Program-made: the position numbers and the translations under genes
Notes under the pieces: generated by a model
Told to the model about the DNA's origin: nothing
The model's database searches: none
Seen by the model: only the letters and a program-made list of their open reading frames with translations
Origin: Tranzscheliella williamsii
Taxonomy: Eukaryota; Basidiomycota; Ustilaginomycetes; Ustilaginales; Ustilaginaceae
Assembly: GCA_023212725.1 (NCBI GenBank)
Contig: JALBYF010000067.1
Coordinates: forward strand, 33,965 to 97,964
Direction of reading: 5' to 3'
Length of the DNA stretch: 64,000 nucleotides
Shown: positions 43,799-52,896 of the stretch, one piece after another
Layout: the number at the start of each line of letters is the position of its first letter
Position numbering within the stretch: the first letter of the stretch is position 1

Positions 43799-44374
43799 CT
43801 ATACATCAGGCCGGGAGGAGCCACACAGCACCGATGTAGCTAGCACTCAAAGTGAGAAGCTGAAGGGTAGCAGACGAAGGAAGGATAGACGCTGCCATCT
43901 GCTGCGCAGTGGCTTCTGAACACGGCGGCAGGCTGTGGCCTAAAAACTCCGCGTAGCATCGTTAGTGTTGGACTCTTCAAATTAAGACGCGCCGTCCCTC
44001 AGAAGCGTGAAGCGTAAAGGGTTGTGTGGAGGGTTGACTCTCGGCCGGCTGTTTCCGTCGAAGTTGTGTGGTGGAGGTTGTCGATCACAGCGAGCAGATC
44101 CCAACTGGAGCAAGAGCGGAGCTTGCTGTGAGAGTGTCGCGTCGTCAGCCGCCCAGGCCAGTTCGTTCAATTCAAGTCGACTCTCTCTTAACACCTTCCA
44201 AAGCTTCCAACCTTCGACATCCTTGTCCCCAACGAGCGTACTGTCCGCCTGCCTCACGACACCCTCCTAGATTTTGCAGGCTGCTGCACAGACAAGTCTC
44301 GTAGCTTGCCTCCCTGAAACCGTGCTCAGCTGTTCTCATTTCCTTTTCAAAGCAGGCTGATTTGGTTGCCAGCT
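43799..44374. other. Divergent promoter region, HUS1 / RPN2
   Basis: About 580 bp between divergent starts. It contains pyrimidine-rich leader sequence before RPN2. I see no TATA box or repeat. Confidence 0.5.
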
Positions 44375-47300
44375 ATGGTTGCTCCCGTCACCTCAGCGGC
44401 AGGCATTGTCGCTTTGCTTGACGAGCAAGAGCCAGAACTGCAGTCTTATGCGCTCAAGCGTCTCGACTCACTAGTAGATCAGTTTTGGGCCGAGATTGCC
44501 GATGCTGTCTCTAAGATCGAGGTCCTCTACGAAGATGAGCGCTTTCAGGATCGCCAGCTCGCCGCCCTTGTCGCCTCCAAGATCTACTTTCACCTGGGAG
44601 AGCACGATGAGGCACTGATGTTTGCGCTCGGCTCCGGTCCGCTTTTCGATGTCGAAAAAAAGGACGAATATGTTGACACCGTCGTCTCCAAGGCCATCGA
44701 CCGATACATCCAGGACTCAGCTGCAGGCGAGGGCAAAATTGACCCGCGATTGAAGACCATTGTTGACCAGATGTTTGCCCGGTGTATTGCAGACAAAGAA
44801 TACAGGCAAGCACTTGGTATCGCTCTCGAAACCCAGAGATTGGATATCATCGAGGAGGTCTACAGTGTCACCCAGGACGCCGGTCTCCTCACTTACGTTC
44901 TCGAGAGCACAGTTGGCGTGGTTCCCTCGCTGGAGGTCCGAGTTCAGATACTCAACCTCTTGGTAAAGCTTTTCCAAAAGCTACCCAGTCCCGATCACTT
45001 TAGCATAGGCCAGTGCTATGTCTACCTGAACGCCCCGAATCTGGCTGCAGATCTGCTCTTTAACCTCATCCAGCAAGCCCACCAAGCTTCGAGCTCGTCC
45101 CTTGCAAATACGGACAAGGATCCCTTGTTGGTCGCATATCAGCTTGCCTTCGACCTTGCCGAGAGCGCCACGCAAGAGTTCCTAGAGACCGTTCGACGAG
45201 AGTTGTCCACGAAAACCGCTGACACCGGTGCGGTAAAGGCCGAGGCCGACGCTGATGCCGACATGTACGGCGACGGCGAAGCCACGACCGTGGACTCCTG
45301 CATCGGTCGCATTCGAGCTATCCTGCAGGGGGAAGAGAGCATTCAGCTATACTTGGAGTTCCTCAGAAGGTCCAATAAGGCCGACCTCCCCATCCTCAAG
45401 GCCACAAAGGATGCCCTCGACGCCAGAAGCAGTATCTATCACTCTGCACTCAGCTTCGCCAATGCGTTTATGAACGCAGGTACCACCTCGGACACATTCT
45501 TGCGAGACAACTTGGAATGGCTGGCCAAGGCATCCAACTGGTCGAAATTCACCGCCACCGCTGCCCTTGGTGTGCTTAACAAGGGAAACCTCAAGGACGG
45601 TATTGCCCTGCTCAGACCCTATTTGCCTCAAGACGGTGTCACGAGCAGTGTCTATTCTGAAGGTGGAAGTCTTTTCGCGCTCGGCCTTATTCACGCCAAC
45701 CACGGCAGCGAAGTTATGGAGCTGCTCACCAACACGCTCAAAAGCAATCCTGCCGAAATTGTTCAGCACGGTGCTGCGCTAGGTCTCGGCGCTGCTGGCA
45801 TGGCGACGGGCAATGAAGATGTGTACGAGGAGCTTCGAAACGTCCTCTACACCGACTCGGCCGTAGCTGGCGAGGCGAGTGGCTATGCCATGGGACTTGT
45901 CATGCTCGGCACAGGCTCGGAACGGGCTGTGGAAGAGATGCTTCAGTACGCCCACGAAACCCAGCATGAGAAGATTATCCGTGGACTCGCGATTGGTATC
46001 TCGCTTCTGTTCTACGGCAAGGAGGAGAAGGCGGACACGATGATTGACACTCTTCTGGCTGACAAAGATGCCATATTGCGTTACGGAGGTGTCTACACCA
46101 TCGCTTTGGCATATGCCGGAACCGGTAACAATAAGGCCGTACGACGACTGCTTCACATAGCCGTATCAGACGTTAGCGACGATGTTCGAAGGGCGGCCGT
46201 GACCAGTCTTGGCTTCCTCCTCTTCCGCAACCCGACGCAGGTACCAAGGATTGTTCAATTGCTGTCTGAGTCTTACAACCCGCACGTGCGTTACGGAAGC
46301 ACCTTTGCTCTCGGTATCGCCTGTGCTGGCACCGGCTTGGACGAAGCGGTCGACCTGCTCGAGCCAATGACCAAAGATCCCGTCGACTTCGTTCGACAAG
46401 GTGCATGCATTGCATTGGCTATGATCTTCATTCAGCAGAACGAGAACCTCAACCCTCGGGTCACCAGCGCTCGCAAGACTTTCGACAAGATTATCTCTGA
46501 CAAGCACGAAGATGCCATGGCTAAGTTTGGTGCCGCCCTTGCTCAAGGTTTGATTGACGCTGGAGGCCGAAATGTCACCATTTCCTTGCAGAGCCGTGGC
46601 GGCAACGCGAATATGCCAGCCATCGTGGGTATGGCCCTATTCACACAGTTCTGGTACTGGTTCCCGCTTGCCCACTTTTCTGCCCTTGCCTTTACGCCCA
46701 CCGCGTTGATCGGCTTGAACCGGGAGCTGAGGATCCCTGACTTCGAGTTCATCTCGGAGGCCAAGCCCAGTCTCTTCGCATATCCAACGGCGTACAAGCA
46801 GCCATCCGAGAAAAAGGTGGAGCGGGTTGAAACCGCAGTGTTGTCCACTACTGTAAAGGCGCAGGCCCGACAGAGGACCAAGGAGCGCAACAAGGTCCAG
46901 GCTGAAGGTGGTGATGCCATGGACCTGGACGACGCGCCCACGGGTGCCAAGAAGGAAGAGGGAGATGTGGCCATGGACGAAGACGCGAGCAAGACGGTCA
47001 AGCCCAAGAGCAAGAAGGAGAGGAAGGTAGAACCCAAGTCGGAATTGATCCCAAACTATTCTCGCGTGACACCGGCGCAGGTCAAGTTCATCAGCTTCCC
47101 ACCCGATGCCCGATTCGTTCCCATCCGACCCGTCCAGGGGCTGGCGGGCAAGGTGCGGCAGGACGTATACAACACTTCGACCGTTGCAGGCCGACTGTTG
47201 GGCAACTCGTCACCGGCGCCAGGTGCCAGCGGGACAGTGACGCCGGCGCACACTGGCGCAGCCGCTCCCGGCGCCAAATCGCTGCATCAGCAGGCGGTTG

Positions 47301-47719
47301 CCAACGCCACTGCCGAGAGCGAGACGCCTCCAGCGGCCGCTGCCCCTGCAGGGCCGACGGCGGAGCAAGCCCGCATGATTCTCACATCTGCCGTGGGAGG
47401 GACCGGCGGCATCCTTCTTATGGTCGATCGGCGGCCGGATGAGGAGTTCAGGCCGCTCAAGATCGGCGACAGCCACGACGCCCCCCCCGGTGCCTCCGGC
47501 GAAGACGGCGCACAGGACGCCCGACAGCAGTCCGCCCCGTCCGCCGACGACATCAGCCCCGAAGACGCTGCGGCCATTGCGGCCGCTATGGCCGCCGACG
47601 ACAACCAGGAGGATCCCGACAAGGAGATCAACAGCGTCGCCGGCCAGCAGAACAGGCGCGACAATGCAGACGACAACACTGGCCCCGGCTCCGCCGGCGG
47701 CCTCCCCGAAGCCCGGTAG
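44375..47719 (+). CDS. RPN2: 26S proteasome regulatory subunit Rpn2 (PSMD1)
   Basis: Single-exon 1114-aa protein from the ATG at 44375. The N-terminal rod carries QSYALKRLDSLVDQFWAEIAD. The central toroid has proteasome/cyclosome repeats with the alternating GLGAAG, GYAMGLVMLGTG, RYGSTFALGIACAGTG pattern from ~430 to ~790. NMPAIVGMALFTQFWYWFPL is diagnostic of Rpn2. The C-terminal part contains a Lys-rich acidic insert (about residues 825-890) and a ~130-residue Ala/Pro-rich tail after ILLMVDRRPDEEFRPL, making it longer than yeast or human Rpn2 (about 950 aa). Rpn2 is the largest base scaffold, docking Rpn13 and lid subunits onto the 20S core. Convergent with the aldolase fusion, 231 bp apart. 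Confidence 0.97.
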   Translation: MVAPVTSAAGIVALLDEQEPELQSYALKRLDSLVDQFWAEIADAVSKIEVLYEDERFQDRQLAALVASKIYFHLGEHDEALMFALGSGPLFDVEKKDEYVDTVVSKAIDRYIQDSAAGEGKIDPRLKTIVDQMFARCIADKEYRQALGIALETQRLDIIEEVYSVTQDAGLLTYVLESTVGVVPSLEVRVQILNLLVKLFQKLPSPDHFSIGQCYVYLNAPNLAADLLFNLIQQAHQASSSSLANTDKDPLLVAYQLAFDLAESATQEFLETVRRELSTKTADTGAVKAEADADADMYGDGEATTVDSCIGRIRAILQGEESIQLYLEFLRRSNKADLPILKATKDALDARSSIYHSALSFANAFMNAGTTSDTFLRDNLEWLAKASNWSKFTATAALGVLNKGNLKDGIALLRPYLPQDGVTSSVYSEGGSLFALGLIHANHGSEVMELLTNTLKSNPAEIVQHGAALGLGAAGMATGNEDVYEELRNVLYTDSAVAGEASGYAMGLVMLGTGSERAVEEMLQYAHETQHEKIIRGLAIGISLLFYGKEEKADTMIDTLLADKDAILRYGGVYTIALAYAGTGNNKAVRRLLHIAVSDVSDDVRRAAVTSLGFLLFRNPTQVPRIVQLLSESYNPHVRYGSTFALGIACAGTGLDEAVDLLEPMTKDPVDFVRQGACIALAMIFIQQNENLNPRVTSARKTFDKIISDKHEDAMAKFGAALAQGLIDAGGRNVTISLQSRGGNANMPAIVGMALFTQFWYWFPLAHFSALAFTPTALIGLNRELRIPDFEFISEAKPSLFAYPTAYKQPSEKKVERVETAVLSTTVKAQARQRTKERNKVQAEGGDAMDLDDAPTGAKKEEGDVAMDEDASKTVKPKSKKERKVEPKSELIPNYSRVTPAQVKFISFPPDARFVPIRPVQGLAGKVRQDVYNTSTVAGRLLGNSSPAPGASGTVTPAHTGAAAPGAKSLHQQAVANATAESETPPAAAAPAGPTAEQARMILTSAVGGTGGILLMVDRRPDEEFRPLKIGDSHDAPPGASGEDGAQDARQQSAPSADDISPEDAAAIAAAMAADDNQEDPDKEINSVAGQQNRRDNADDNTGPGSAGGLPEAR

Positions 47720-47950: not shown

Positions 47951-49903
47951 CTAGCCGGCGATGCCGACGGAGCCCTGCTCGAGGTCGCGCTCGAGCTGGA
48001 TCTTGGTGGCTTCGTCGATGTGGGTGTGAAGGGGGTCGAAGCGGGCCATTGTGCGGCAGACGAGGGCGGCGTCTTCGAGGAACGCGTTGACGCTGAGGCG
48101 GAGCTGGCGGACGGTGGTGGCGAGGATCTTGACGGCGAGCTCGACGGGCGCGTCGTCGGTGGTGGTGGGGGTGAGCGCAAACTCCTTGCGCACCTCGTTC
48201 GGCCGGAGCTCGCGGTCCACGCTGATCGCGTTCTGCAGCGCCAGCGCCGACGCGCGGTCGGGGAACGGGAGGACCAGCGACACGCTGTGCTTCATCCCGT
48301 CCGCCGCCGCGGGCGTCGCCGCGATCGAACGGAACACCACACCGCCGTCCATGCTCGACGTGCGCACGTGGCCGTCGCCGCCAGCCCCAGCCGTGCCTGC
48401 ACCGCCGGTGCTGCCCGAGTACGGCCCATCCTTCACAGCGCCGTCCGCCGTGCTTGATGCAGCAGCACCCCCGCCAGACTTTTCTTCCTTCATGGTGCGG
48501 ATCAAGTTGATCATATCGTCGACGGCCGCCCGCTCGATCTGGTAGTGGATGACCATGCGGCCGCCGGTCAGAGTGACGGGCCTGGGCAGCGATTTGGCAC
48601 GCCGACAAACCTCCTGGATTGGGAGGCCAATCGGTTCAGTATCCAGGAACACCATGCTGGTCTCTACCGGCGCGGTCAGCCGAACGCCGAGCTTCTCCAG
48701 CTCGCGTCCCGCGTGTTTGGCCAGCTCGTGGGTGGCAGCCAGCTTCGGGTAGGTGTCGAGCACGGCCACGCGGGCTGCGGCTACCAGCGGACCCACCTGC
48801 CGCAGTCCAGCACCATAGAGCTTCCGGAAGTGGCGCACTTTCTTGATGAACCGCGATGGGCCGACGAGGATGCTCCCAACCGGCGCACCGAGACCCTTGC
48901 TGAGACAAAGCGAGACCGAGTCGAACGGATCGCAGAGTTCTTTGAGGGAAAGGCCGGTCTCTGCCGCAACGTTCCAGAGGCGGGCACCGTCGAGATGCAT
49001 GATAAGGCCGCGCTTTCTCGCTTCGGTGGAGATCTTGACAATTTCGTCCTGCGGAAAGATGGTGCCGTGCAATGTGTTCTCGAGCGAAATGATCCGGGTG
49101 GGCGCAAAGTGGATGTCGTCGTCGAGGCATAGCTTTGGCAAGATATCTTGCTCCCAACGCAGGTGGTGGCCATTGGAAGGGGCGACGATCTCGGTGGCGG
49201 CGCCACAGTGGAAGGCGATACCGCTGGCCTCGTACCGGAAGATGTGAGAGCGGGTGTCGCAGAGGACGGTATAGGGGGGCTGTAGAAGGTGGGTGCGCAA
49301 GGCCAGCTGGTTCGAAAGAGTACCAGAGGGGACAAAGATGGCAGACTCCTTGCCTGTCAGAGCCGCAATCTCCGCTTGGAAGGTGTTGGTCATCTCATCC
49401 TCGCCATACACATCGTCACCGCGAGAAGCGGAGGCCATAGCTTCCACCATCCGTTCGCTAGGCACAGTGATGGTATCGGAGCGGAAGTCCCTGGCGATCT
49501 GCTCGAGCTTTCGTGCATTGTCGAGCTTGAGGGCTGGGGGATGAGCCGAAAGCAGTGGCTCGGTCTTGTTCTTCTGGCGTGCTGCAGGATCGGACGCCCC
49601 AGCTGGCTGAACCGGGGCAGGCACGCCGTTACTACCCTTTTGAACGTTGATGGGCCGCTGAGTGTCCGATGGGCCTACATGATCGATTGGCTCGGACGGC
49701 TGGAGGGGGTAAGAGCCATAGGGATTAGCCATCGTTGTCGCTTTTAAGTTAGTGTTAGTAGCTGAGTACGATATCTGCTTGGCTCGATGCAAGATCAGAA
49801 GCTGAGTCGGCGTCGGTCTAGAAGCGCGGGAGGGAGGGAGTGACAGCAATCGTGGCCGTAAAGCGAACCTGGACGATGCACCGATGCGGCTGACTGGGAG
49901 CAT
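47951..49903 (-). CDS. GLY1: L-threonine aldolase fused to KEOPS subunit Pcc1
   Basis: One uninterrupted frame of 650 codons from the ATG at 49903. Residues 1-57 lack acidic residues and are Arg/Ser/Leu-rich, like a mitochondrial presequence; a second ATG at 49732 (MANPYG) would give a cytosolic form. Residues ~135-475 are a PLP-dependent threonine aldolase: DFRSDTITVPSERM, GDDVYGEDE, HLDGARLWN and the PLP Lys (~336) in SLCLSKGLGAPVGS. It cleaves threonine to glycine and acetaldehyde. After a Gly/Ala-rich linker (~476-536), residues 537-625 are a Pcc1/CTAG domain: HSVSLVLPFPDRASALA, ISVDRELRPNEV, VRQLRLSVNAFLEDAALVCRTMARF. Pcc1 is the dimerisation subunit of KEOPS, which makes t6A in ANN-decoding tRNAs. 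No GT-AG intron or stop is evident in the linker. Both domain identifications are strong; that one mRNA makes one polypeptide is inferred. Confidence 0.92.
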   Translation of the reverse strand: MLPVSRIGASSRFALRPRLLSLPPSRASRPTPTQLLILHRAKQISYSATNTNLKATTMANPYGSYPLQPSEPIDHVGPSDTQRPINVQKGSNGVPAPVQPAGASDPAARQKNKTEPLLSAHPPALKLDNARKLEQIARDFRSDTITVPSERMVEAMASASRGDDVYGEDEMTNTFQAEIAALTGKESAIFVPSGTLSNQLALRTHLLQPPYTVLCDTRSHIFRYEASGIAFHCGAATEIVAPSNGHHLRWEQDILPKLCLDDDIHFAPTRIISLENTLHGTIFPQDEIVKISTEARKRGLIMHLDGARLWNVAAETGLSLKELCDPFDSVSLCLSKGLGAPVGSILVGPSRFIKKVRHFRKLYGAGLRQVGPLVAAARVAVLDTYPKLAATHELAKHAGRELEKLGVRLTAPVETSMVFLDTEPIGLPIQEVCRRAKSLPRPVTLTGGRMVIHYQIERAAVDDMINLIRTMKEEKSGGGAAASSTADGAVKDGPYSGSTGGAGTAGAGGDGHVRTSSMDGGVVFRSIAATPAAADGMKHSVSLVLPFPDRASALALQNAISVDRELRPNEVRKEFALTPTTTDDAPVELAVKILATTVRQLRLSVNAFLEDAALVCRTMARFDPLHTHIDEATKIQLERDLEQGSVGIAG

Positions 49904-50850
49904 AAGAACCGAAAGACCGCTGTGGGAAAGGCGCAACTGAACCAACGCTGTCGTTGCTCAGTGCTGTTGGACTGGCTAGATGTACATCAGGCGAGAAGGA
50001 ATGCGGTGCGGTGCGTTATCGGCTTGGGCGTGGGAATCGGACGACTGAAATTTCGGTCGTGCCGGCCGCGATTAGACAGGTTGGCTTGGTGTCGGCATCT
50101 ACGCCGGCGATCTTCCGATCGGCACAAAGAGTCCCGCAAAGAAGAGTTGGGTTAAAAAAGCTATAGCAGAAATCGACAGCCGTGGCCAGAGCTTTCGGCA
50201 GTGCCGCACAACCAAAGCTCACAATAGCGACACTGGCACGCTACCTCACTCCGTCCGCTCTGCTCTGACGCATTGTGCGCGGTTTCCATAGGGCCTGGAC
50301 ATAGCGGCGGGAGCAATGGACAGAAGGGCGGAGCATACAGTGCTGCAGTGCTGCAGTGTTGCAGTAGGGCTAGGGTAAGGTTTAGTGTTAGGGTTAGGGG
50401 TTTGCCTCGCCACTTGGCTGTGCAATACGAAGACGAGGCATTTCCTCCATGAGAACCCGAAGCGTGACAGATCGATAGTGATCTTGAGCAAGCAGATGGC
50501 CGCCGGCGACGATTGCCTCGTGTGAAAGGACCAATGCGGCAACTCAGGTCTATGGTTCGGAGGCATGTGTGCGCGAACCTTAGCTAGCGTTCTGGCAGAG
50601 AGCACCCTACAGCTGCGACGACTAAACTGTTACCACATTCTTGGCCGTACGTACTGTCTCATACAGTACTTCACCATCAAGCATCGTCGATCTGGCGGTT
50701 TCGGCTGTCGTCTCATCCATCCCTTTTTGCGGAAGCGCGTACATGATGCTCTAAACGCGGAAGTCGGCAATGCGGACGCTTCTTCCATCCTGATCTTGCA
50801 GGCTTCCTGCTCGTACTCTTGCGCACCAGCCGTTGTGTGCTCCTAGTAAC
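49904..50850. other. Divergent promoter region, aldolase-Pcc1 / GatB, with telomere-like repeat
   Basis: About 950 bp containing an 8-bp microrepeat and a telomere-like tract (listed separately). No gene is seen. Confidence 0.5.
50341..50403. repeat. Short microrepeat and interstitial telomere-like tract
   Basis: Three copies of TGCTGCAG-like 8-mers (50341-50364) run directly into a G-rich stretch built from TAGGG/TTAGGG units, ending TTAGGGTTAGGGG. TTAGGG is the usual fungal telomere unit; here it is far from any chromosome end and sits in a divergent promoter region, where such elements can bind Tbf1/Rap1-like proteins. Confidence 0.8.
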
Positions 50851-52896
50851 ATGAGGCAGACGGCCGCAGATCTGTGCCGACAATGCGCTCCTCTGGGATC
50901 CTCGAGTAGGCGAGCGAGTTTTACTTCGCCTTCTAGCCTGTCCGTCATTGCGCTTTCCCAATCGAGAAGATATGTCGGCCGGCTCAGTGCCTCTTTCACT
51001 CTGGCGGGTCCGTCGAACCTGACCCACTCTGGCAGAGCTTGTGACTTGCCAACATCCAACCGCCCATTTCATAGATTTGCGCCAAGATGCCTCAGTGTGT
51101 CGGTCAGTGCTAATGCGAAGAGCAAGAAGGGAAAAGCGGCCAAGCCCTCTTCGGTAGATGGAACAGCTCCCGGTACGTCTCGATACCCGCCTCTTCCGCA
51201 TGGTTGGCAGGTGGTGATAGGTGTCGAGTGCCATATCCAGATCAAGGACAAGCACAAGCTGTTCAGTAGCGCCGAGCTCCCGTCCTCTACCTCGCCGCCC
51301 AACGTGCTGGTTACACCTTTCGACGCAGCGCATCCGGGAACTTTACCTACATTGAACACTTCGGCGCTGAAGCTGGCCGTGCGCACAGCGTTGGCGCTCA
51401 AGTGCCGCATACATCCAGAAAGTAGATTCGATCGCAAACACTACTTCTACTCAGATCTGCCCGCAGGCTACCAAATTACACAGAAGTACGCTCCGCTCGC
51501 CAATAACGGCAAAGTGCATCTCAGCTTCGACGAGGGGCATTTGCCGAGTGTGGAAGACGAGGTCACCGTTGAGATCGAGCAGCTGCAACTGGAGCAAGAC
51601 ACCGCCAAATCAACCTACTTTGACACCGGCACCACCTCAAAGACGAATGCAAAGACGGATGTTGAAAGCAACACCGGGCCCTTCGAGGAGGCAGACGGGT
51701 ATCAGGTCCATAGGAGCTTCGTGGATCTGAACCGTGCGGGGACGGGGTTGATGGAGGTTGTCAGTGGACCGCAGATGCGGACGCCAGAACAGGCAGGCGC
51801 CTATGTGCGGAAGCTCCAGGAGCTCGTGCGCCGCGTCGGTGCTTCGGACGGCAATATGCAGGATGGCTCGCTCCGATGCGACGTCAACGTGTCGGTGCAT
51901 CGCATCGGCGAGCCCTTCGGCACCCGATGCGAGGTCAAGAATCTGAACAGCGTCAGATTCATGATGAATGCGATCGCATACGAGTCGCACCGCCAGGTTC
52001 GGCTGCTGCAGGAGGCTGGTGGCAGCGTCGAGCAACAGACAAGGGGCTATGACGAAGCCAACGGCACAACGTTTCGGTTACGCGGAAAAGAGGATGCGCC
52101 GGACTATCGGTACATGCCAGACCCGAATCTACCACCTATCATGCTGTCCGAGGCGCAGATCGAAACAGTCCGTCAAGAGCTCCCAGAACTGCCAGATGCG
52201 AGGCGTGCACGCCTTCGTGTGCAGTACAGCCTTCCGCCTCGAGATCTCAACGTTCTGATCAGGGTCGGGTCGGAGGACGAGGGTGCCGGCCGAATCGATG
52301 CAGCTACCTCCGCGGCCTCACTGCCCGGATCAGCCCCTCTGATGACGCAAAGCGATGCAGTGGACTATTTTGAGCAGGTAGCCGAAGGACGGAACCCGCA
52401 GGTAGCGCTCAATTGGATCATTCACGAGCTGATGAAAGGGCTCAACGCACGAAATCTGCCGTTTCGCGACTGGTTTCTGCCGCCAGCGTACCTGGGCGAA
52501 CTGATTGATCTGGTCGAAAGCGGGACTGTCACAGGCACCACCGCCAAGGGGCTGATATCGGAAGTGCTTTCGTGCGCCGCAGCATCTGTACCTGCGCCTG
52601 CGTCGGACCCGAAAAGCATCTTGCTGCAGACCTTGGACGATCTGCGAGCGGCATCGGCATCGCCCGTGTTGGCCCTGCTTGTGCAGAGGGACCTACTGGC
52701 ACTGAACACCCGCGAAAAGGTGCTACCGCTGGTACAATCCGCTCTGGCAGCTTTGCCAGACGAGGCGGCACAAGTCCGCAAGGGCAACGTGAAAGTGGCC
52801 ATGCGCATCGTGGGTCAGGTGATGAAGGACGCACAGGGGAGGGCGGACGCCAAGCTCGTCCACCAGACTATCCTGGACGAATTGACTCCGGCTTAG
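50851..52896 (+). CDS. PET112: Mitochondrial glutamyl-tRNA(Gln) amidotransferase subunit B
   Basis: Single-exon 681-aa protein from the ATG at 50851. The first ~100 residues are Arg/Ser-rich with almost no acidic residues, a typical mitochondrial presequence. GatB motifs follow: VVIGVECHIQIKDKHKLFS, RFDRKHYFYSDLPAGYQITQ, FVDLNRAGTGLMEVVSGPQM, DGSLRCDVNVSVH and RCEVKNLNSVRFM. The C-terminal half has the YqeY-like helical tail (AKGLISEVLS, KGNVKVAMRIVGQVMKDAQGRAD). Within GatFAB or GatCAB it activates Glu-tRNA(Gln) for transamidation, making Gln-tRNA(Gln) for mitochondrial translation. Convergent with the LYAR-Esf2 gene. Confidence 0.96.
   Translation: MRQTAADLCRQCAPLGSSSRRASFTSPSSLSVIALSQSRRYVGRLSASFTLAGPSNLTHSGRACDLPTSNRPFHRFAPRCLSVSVSANAKSKKGKAAKPSSVDGTAPGTSRYPPLPHGWQVVIGVECHIQIKDKHKLFSSAELPSSTSPPNVLVTPFDAAHPGTLPTLNTSALKLAVRTALALKCRIHPESRFDRKHYFYSDLPAGYQITQKYAPLANNGKVHLSFDEGHLPSVEDEVTVEIEQLQLEQDTAKSTYFDTGTTSKTNAKTDVESNTGPFEEADGYQVHRSFVDLNRAGTGLMEVVSGPQMRTPEQAGAYVRKLQELVRRVGASDGNMQDGSLRCDVNVSVHRIGEPFGTRCEVKNLNSVRFMMNAIAYESHRQVRLLQEAGGSVEQQTRGYDEANGTTFRLRGKEDAPDYRYMPDPNLPPIMLSEAQIETVRQELPELPDARRARLRVQYSLPPRDLNVLIRVGSEDEGAGRIDAATSAASLPGSAPLMTQSDAVDYFEQVAEGRNPQVALNWIIHELMKGLNARNLPFRDWFLPPAYLGELIDLVESGTVTGTTAKGLISEVLSCAAASVPAPASDPKSILLQTLDDLRAASASPVLALLVQRDLLALNTREKVLPLVQSALAALPDEAAQVRKGNVKVAMRIVGQVMKDAQGRADAKLVHQTILDELTPA

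Follow-up and report, generated by a model that had tools for sequence, protein, structure and literature searches.

Gene structure and domains

The window analysed here is a 64,000-nucleotide stretch of contig JALBYF010000067.1 of Tranzscheliella williamsii (Ustilaginaceae). Its minus strand contains one gene in which an L-threonine aldolase is joined in frame to Pcc1, a subunit of the KEOPS complex that functions in the synthesis of threonylcarbamoyladenosine (t6A) in tRNA. The 593-residue form of the fusion protein (MANPYGSYPL... to ...GSVGIAG) is encoded at 47951–49732 (-) with the stop codon at 47953–47951, and 27 relatives share the arrangement. In the raw DNA, the frame at 47951–49903 (-) has no internal stop, whether it is read from ATG 49903 or from ATG 49732; the other two minus-strand frames contain 12 and 7 stops between ATG 49732 and the stop codon. 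The L-threonine aldolase domain (PF01212) lies at 48638–49489 (-) (residues 82–365; 267.8 bits against a cut-off of 27, E = 1.5e-79) and the Pcc1 domain (PF09341) at 48047–48283 (-) (residues 484–562; 53 bits against a cut-off of 20.9, E = 4.7e-14). A first-pass annotation of this stretch had described a single frame with a complete aldolase including its pyridoxal phosphate (PLP) lysine, a linker and a complete Pcc1, and the absence of stops and the two Pfam matches agree with that description. The domain E-values and the 27 relatives rule out a chance open frame; an assembly or gene-model artefact is likewise ruled out, as the frame is open in the raw DNA and recurs in many records.

The aldolase half also matches NCBIfam NF041359 (284.6 bits, above the cut-off of 230), while the E. 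coli-type model PRK10534 scores 229.5 bits, below its own cut-off of 312. The nearest solved relatives are bacterial L-allo-threonine aldolases, the best being 3wgb (2.2e-64). The codon of the putative PLP-binding lysine (K279) is at 48896–48898 (-). A lysine occupies this position in all 28 aligned fusion rows, as do Asp and Arg at D248 and R251, and H163 is found in 27 rows, the other being truncated; each of the four is invariant in the 45 rows of the aldolase-domain tree described below. The roles of these residues (PLP lysine, stacking His, cofactor Asp and substrate Arg) were taken from PMC4761611, with the correspondence made by alignment (papers given by PMC number are cited from excerpts of their text). 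Judged by this alignment, the catalytic residues of the aldolase are kept. Solved structures of L-threonine aldolases show homotetramers whose active sites lie at the dimer interface (PMC4761611) and, by analogy, the aldolase half is very likely a homotetramer. Residues 436–439, GPYS (48416–48427 (-); GLYS in most relatives), correspond to the former C-terminal tail of a free aldolase. The tail Tyr is present in 27 of the 28 fusion rows and, in the same column, in 39 of the 45 tree rows, free aldolases included; many free aldolases end with a short Tyr tail, such as ...NGSLYSGMKKA, ...KKGTYGR and ...GGSVYRR. Because a GLYS-type motif of free-aldolase tails stands at this position, the enzyme appears to have been kept up to its old end.

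For the Pcc1 half, a profile search identified Arabidopsis Pcc1 (1.7e-8), human LAGE3 (6.8e-7) and, weakly, yeast PCC1 (0.0096) as solved relatives. PF09341 matched 8 of the 19 members of one alignment, which equals its number of fusion rows. The beta-alpha-beta-beta-alpha fold is predicted to be present, and the AlphaFold model of this fragment shows an extra predicted strand before the domain and a helix after it. The first-pass annotation had considered that the C-terminal part might prove degenerate; instead, the Pcc1 domain is complete and above the Pfam cut-off. Beyond the domain, the protein ends with a conserved tail of the ELEQGSVGIAG type (47954–47986 (-); residues 583–593; mean column conservation 0.94), and few parts of the protein are as well conserved as these last 11 residues, although they lie outside the Pcc1 domain.

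Linker between the two domains

The tail motif of the aldolase and Met480 are separated by a Gly/Ala/Ser-rich linker of 40 residues (residues 440–479; 48296–48415 (-)). Its counts below are over the 28 aligned fusion rows, which are partly dependent; the truncated P0016 and P0018, for example, share the linker sequence. Mean column conservation is 0.51 for residues 441–463 and 0.76 for residues 464–480, compared with 0.92 for the aldolase and 0.86 for Pcc1. The better conserved part contains a VFxxI element (48323–48337 (-)), in which F467 is invariant (28/28) and I470 is found in 27 rows. This element is predicted to form a beta strand just before beta1 of Pcc1 in both AlphaFold models, with low confidence: the mean predicted local distance difference test (pLDDT) score is 53 for residues 31–40 of the fragment model and 43 for residues 521–530 of the full-length model. 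The latter was built on a 17-row alignment (mean pLDDT 45.2) and was used solely for noting the predicted strand.

The Pcc1 part starts with Met480-Lys-His (Met480 codon, 48293–48295 (-)). Met480 is present in 27 of the 28 rows and is replaced by Phe in Violaceomyces palustris, which has a Met at position 470, so that a Met stands at the Pcc1 domain or slightly ahead of it in each of the rows. Met480 probably descends from the start codon of the once separate PCC1 gene and is a possible internal start. Its conservation may also be structural, since the aligned residue is hydrophobic in all five solved relatives that were aligned (W, M, L, I and I). Both internal ATGs pointed out in the first-pass annotation, at 48352 and 48295, exist in the sequence: ATG 48295 has G at -3, and ATG 48352 has A at -3 and G at +4. 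The Met encoded at 48352 occurs in one of the 28 rows, three rows being gapped there. A Met precedes F467 within the linker in 25 rows. The remaining rows (P0023, P0024 and P0029, from two early branches) retain F467 without any Met between residue 420 and F467, and an AUG-initiated product could include F467 there only by way of the fusion. Together with the invariance of F467, these three rows make it probable that the junction is translated within the long chain. A scan with simple sequence patterns revealed in the linker only one donor-like site, at 48367, with no branch-point-like motif after it, and one acceptor, ACAG at 48288. By these patterns no good intron was seen in the linker, and so no sign of the splicing event that the first-pass annotation had thought might remove the junction.

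Distribution and origin

The same joined frame, which the first-pass annotation had proposed to look for in related smut genomes, was found in many of them. A full-length search scored 7998 candidates, and both domains are present in 27 of the best 120 of 7949 matches (15 with and 12 without an organism name), the other 93 being without Pcc1. All of the named ones are smuts. A Pcc1-directed search, restricted to long proteins by a length rule, returned 25 proteins, all 25 with both domains; neither search is exhaustive, as the second missed the fusions P0027 and P0029 found by the first. The named fusions are from Testicularia, Pseudozyma hubeiensis, Sporisorium, Ustilago, Moesziomyces, Melanopsichium, Kalmanozyma, Pseudozyma flocculosa, Thecaphora frezii and Violaceomyces palustris; Ustilago maydis itself is not among the named rows. 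Thecaphora frezii (Urocystidales) and Violaceomyces palustris (Violaceomycetales) were confirmed by look-up as Ustilaginomycetes, to which we take the remaining named organisms to belong as well. Among the 120 matches, aldolases without Pcc1 include those from Tilletiopsis and Ceraceosorus (Exobasidiomycetes by look-up) and from Microstroma, Sympodiomycopsis, Parajaminaea, Exobasidium and Tilletia, presumably all Ustilaginomycotina outside Ustilaginomycetes. No Ustilaginomycetes species was recognised among the named Pcc1-lacking rows of the best 120 of 7949, and thus no split form was seen in this sample of the class.

An aldolase-domain tree was calculated from 45 rows, consisting of 19 of the 28 fusions and 26 of the 93 free rows. 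All fusions in the tree fall into one clade (support 98/93), in which Violaceomyces branches first. The nearest free relatives of this clade are Exobasidiomycetes rows, although the joining is weak (88/67). Because the fusions form a single clade, the tree is most simply read as a single joining on the stem lineage of Ustilaginomycetes.

Copy number and KEOPS genes

Searches of the 18.18 Mb genome with the Pcc1 family and with the Pcc1 protein each gave one place, the fusion gene; they reach short exons, as an apparently intron-split CGI-121 gene was found, though a Pcc1 in very short exons could escape. The standalone PCC1 that the first-pass annotation had weighed as a counter-indication was thus not found in this genome, and a hidden second PCC1 was rejected on the same grounds. 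PF01212 matched three places, the fusion and two weak ones. One of the latter (L003) scores 27.1 against 27 together with its neighbours and resembles BioF/serine palmitoyltransferase models, none of them over its cut-off; the other (L004) is a glycine decarboxylase. Both were rejected as a second threonine aldolase, and the fusion is the only copy of threonine aldolase or of Pcc1 found in the genome searches.

Genes for the KEOPS partners are present, judged by their family scores. The TsaD family has two places over the cut-off (L005 and L006), both also over the common TsaD/Kae1 subfamily cut-off. L005 is Kae1-type (arch_KAE1 363.7 bits, just under the equivalog cut-off of 375) and L006 is Qri7/TsaD-type (TsaD 286.7 bits against a cut-off of 296.1; arch_KAE1 165.1 bits). 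Bud32 scores 138.4 bits when joined (cut-off 125), and Cgi121 was found in two pieces (CGI-121 46.1 and 34.5 bits, cut-off 25), the gene being apparently split by an intron. For Gon7, no PF08738 match was found in the genome, but the control search likewise gave matches in 0 of 14 genomes. Excerpts on Cryptococcus neoformans, also a basidiomycete, report no Gon7 ortholog (PMC9765431, PMC10826353). A separate gene (L009) matches Sua5 (154.5 bits over 123.2). The Sua5 frame, L009 796–2406 (-), has an acid-free, Arg/His-rich start before its second Met, resembling a gene with separate starts for a mitochondrial and a cytosolic form.

Translation start of the long form

The first-pass annotation had extended the gene over 47951–49903. 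The frame is open throughout this range, but ATG 49903 is not the better-placed start. ATG 49732, 57 codons inside ATG 49903, has A at -3 and G at +4, while ATG 49903 has C at -3, and from this context ATG 49732 appears to be the better-placed start codon. The in-frame N-terminal extension from ATG 49903 (49733–49903 (-)) contains no Asp or Glu and 7 Arg or Lys in its first 40 residues and looks like an optional mitochondrial presequence. An acid-free stretch of 40 residues followed by a second Met is also found in 11 of the 26 scorable fusion relatives, the remaining 15 lacking it as annotated; two free aldolases, P0031 and P0034, likewise have an acid-free N-terminus and then a second Met. 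Since the extension precedes a better-placed ATG and has counterparts in relatives and in two free aldolases, dual localization of the aldolase, with a cytosolic short form, is a fair guess. Alternatively, the extension may lie partly within a 5' intron or spliced leader. A candidate 3' end of such an intron is located at 49741–49760 (-), with TACTAAC at 49760–49754 and AG at 49742–49741, ending eight bases before ATG 49732.

Proposed function of the fusion

We consider it probable that the gene makes one bifunctional chain, an ordinary aldolase that carries the cell's Pcc1 for KEOPS. In an ancestral Ustilaginomycetes genome, a threonine aldolase gene would have been joined to a downstream PCC1 gene, both whole, so that the aldolase was kept up to its old C-terminal tail and Pcc1 from roughly where its initiator Met had been. 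The aldolase half would be an ordinary PLP enzyme in fold and action and, like its family, a homotetramer. The Pcc1 half, on its flexible linker, would be the working Pcc1 of the cell, binding Kae1 and serving KEOPS in t6A synthesis. If the aldolase is a homotetramer here, as known L-threonine aldolases are, the enzyme body would display several tethered Pcc1 copies and act as a scaffold. Tethering should stabilize Pcc1 and may set the number of KEOPS units that gather together. Stabilization by a carrier is plausible because, in an excerpted study of human cells, LAGE3 expressed on its own reached lower levels (PMC6722078).

Several points weigh against this proposal. The conservation of Met480 together with the G at -3 in the window is the pattern expected of a start that is still used. 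Since none of the 28 rows lacks a Met at the Pcc1 domain or a little ahead of it, KEOPS may be served partly or wholly by a short, free Pcc1. A search of the protein database for standalone Pcc1 found none at E ≤ 0.01 among 14 candidates, but it was insensitive and the result is weak evidence. Finally, a long form bearing a presequence would take Pcc1 to mitochondria, where Qri7 is described as acting alone (PMC10826353, excerpt).

Of the other explanations, a neutral fusion, in which each half functions on its own and the two stay joined only because they are hard to split, retains an appreciable though less than even chance; it overlaps with the bifunctional chain, which requires no benefit. 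The poor conservation of residues 441–463 and the apparent completeness of both halves accord with neutrality, whereas the invariant linker Phe, the conserved C-terminal tail and the lack of a split form among the named Pcc1-lacking rows of the sample do not.

Less likely, at perhaps one chance in a few, is that the frame gives two products, with Pcc1 made also or instead from an internal promoter or AUG (48295 or 48352) and most KEOPS containing free Pcc1. The favourable -3 and +4 bases at these ATGs, the near-invariance of Met480, the linker Met before F467 in most rows and the alternative Met of Violaceomyces are consistent with such a product, and these Met counts weaken the case against an extra short form. 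On the other side, the Met at 48352 is confined to a single row, a short form leaves the F467 element of P0023, P0024 and P0029 unexplained, and structure alone could keep a hydrophobic residue at position 480. The first-pass annotation had offered as a simpler alternative two genes merely sharing one frame; this is the less supported version, for the first two of these reasons, and its internal start survives as the possible origin of an additional short Pcc1.

A further and somewhat less likely suggestion concerns the VFxxI strand, which could pair in cis with beta1 of Pcc1 and replace Gon7, so that the tethered Pcc1 would enter one KEOPS unit only; self-capping of this kind would be compatible with the bifunctional chain. 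According to an excerpt of PMC9889334, strand beta1 and the C-terminal helices mediate the pairing of Pcc1 with Pcc2, at an interface that is also bound by Gon7, so the predicted strand lies next to a known pairing edge. The conservation of F467 and I470, the strand in both models and the reported Cryptococcus KEOPS without Gon7 (PMC9765431, PMC10826353) fit the suggestion. On the other hand, the strand has the low pLDDT values given above, is known from DSSP letters with no pairing seen, and may predate the fusion. The still more speculative combination, in which KEOPS throughout the class sits on an aldolase tetramer scaffold with the linker strand capping Pcc1 in place of Gon7, and the aldolase fixes the complex number and oligomeric state, seems improbable.

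Threonine is used by both the aldolase and the t6A pathway, and the fusion is kept in 27 relatives, so the aldolase could be imagined to drain or sense threonine beside the t6A machinery and link amino acid state to tRNA modification. Within t6A synthesis, it is Sua5 rather than Pcc1 that consumes threonine. With Sua5 encoded separately here, no third domain over the Pfam cut-off in the fusion, and a Michaelis constant for Thr of 39 µM in a human mitochondrial t6A system (PMC5951830, excerpt) that makes threonine an unlikely limit, such coupling is very unlikely.

Comparison with known systems

The fusion is a new architecture built from known parts. It shares the catalytic domain, catalytic residues and C-terminal Tyr tail with the free fungal low-specificity L-threonine aldolase (GLY1 type) but runs past the tail into the linker and Pcc1. 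With free Pcc1/LAGE3 it shares the Pfam domain and fold; it differs in its covalent attachment to an enzyme and in the extra predicted strand, the helix and the conserved C-terminal tail. Archaeal Kae1-Bud32, TobZ and HypF (for the latter two, PMC9654439, excerpt) also join t6A-type domains, but their partners are Kae1- or YrdC-type, while the smut fusion joins Pcc1 to an enzyme of amino acid metabolism. The Pcc1-Pcc1 fusion in yeast (PMC9889334, excerpt) is likewise a covalently linked, working Pcc1; it is engineered, whereas the smut fusion is natural and aldolase-linked. No paper describing an aldolase-Pcc1 fusion was found among the openly licensed papers searched. Several database records of fusions are named "related to GLY1" or "threonine aldolase" and have both Pfam domains precomputed, and the gene name "threonine aldolase" in smuts probably hides PCC1.

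Thus, across a fungal class as sampled, a metabolic enzyme has become tied to one subunit of a tRNA-modification complex that is itself widely conserved, apparently by a single event and with no reversal among the rows examined. As a natural tethered Pcc1, the fusion allows one to ask whether the working form of KEOPS is monomeric or dimeric and what purpose Gon7 serves, and it offers a direct genetic test of coupling between amino acid metabolism and t6A.

In the window, the fusion gene is flanked by RPN2 (44366–47719 (+)) and GatB (50833–52896 (+)). Two further aldolases have other unusual arrangements. The gene model of P0111 (Tilletia controversa) joins an upstream CMC4 (Cx9C) domain to threonine aldolase and may represent another fusion or a merged model. 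P0028 (Astraeus odoratus) contains two tandem threonine aldolase units in one predicted protein of 735 residues.
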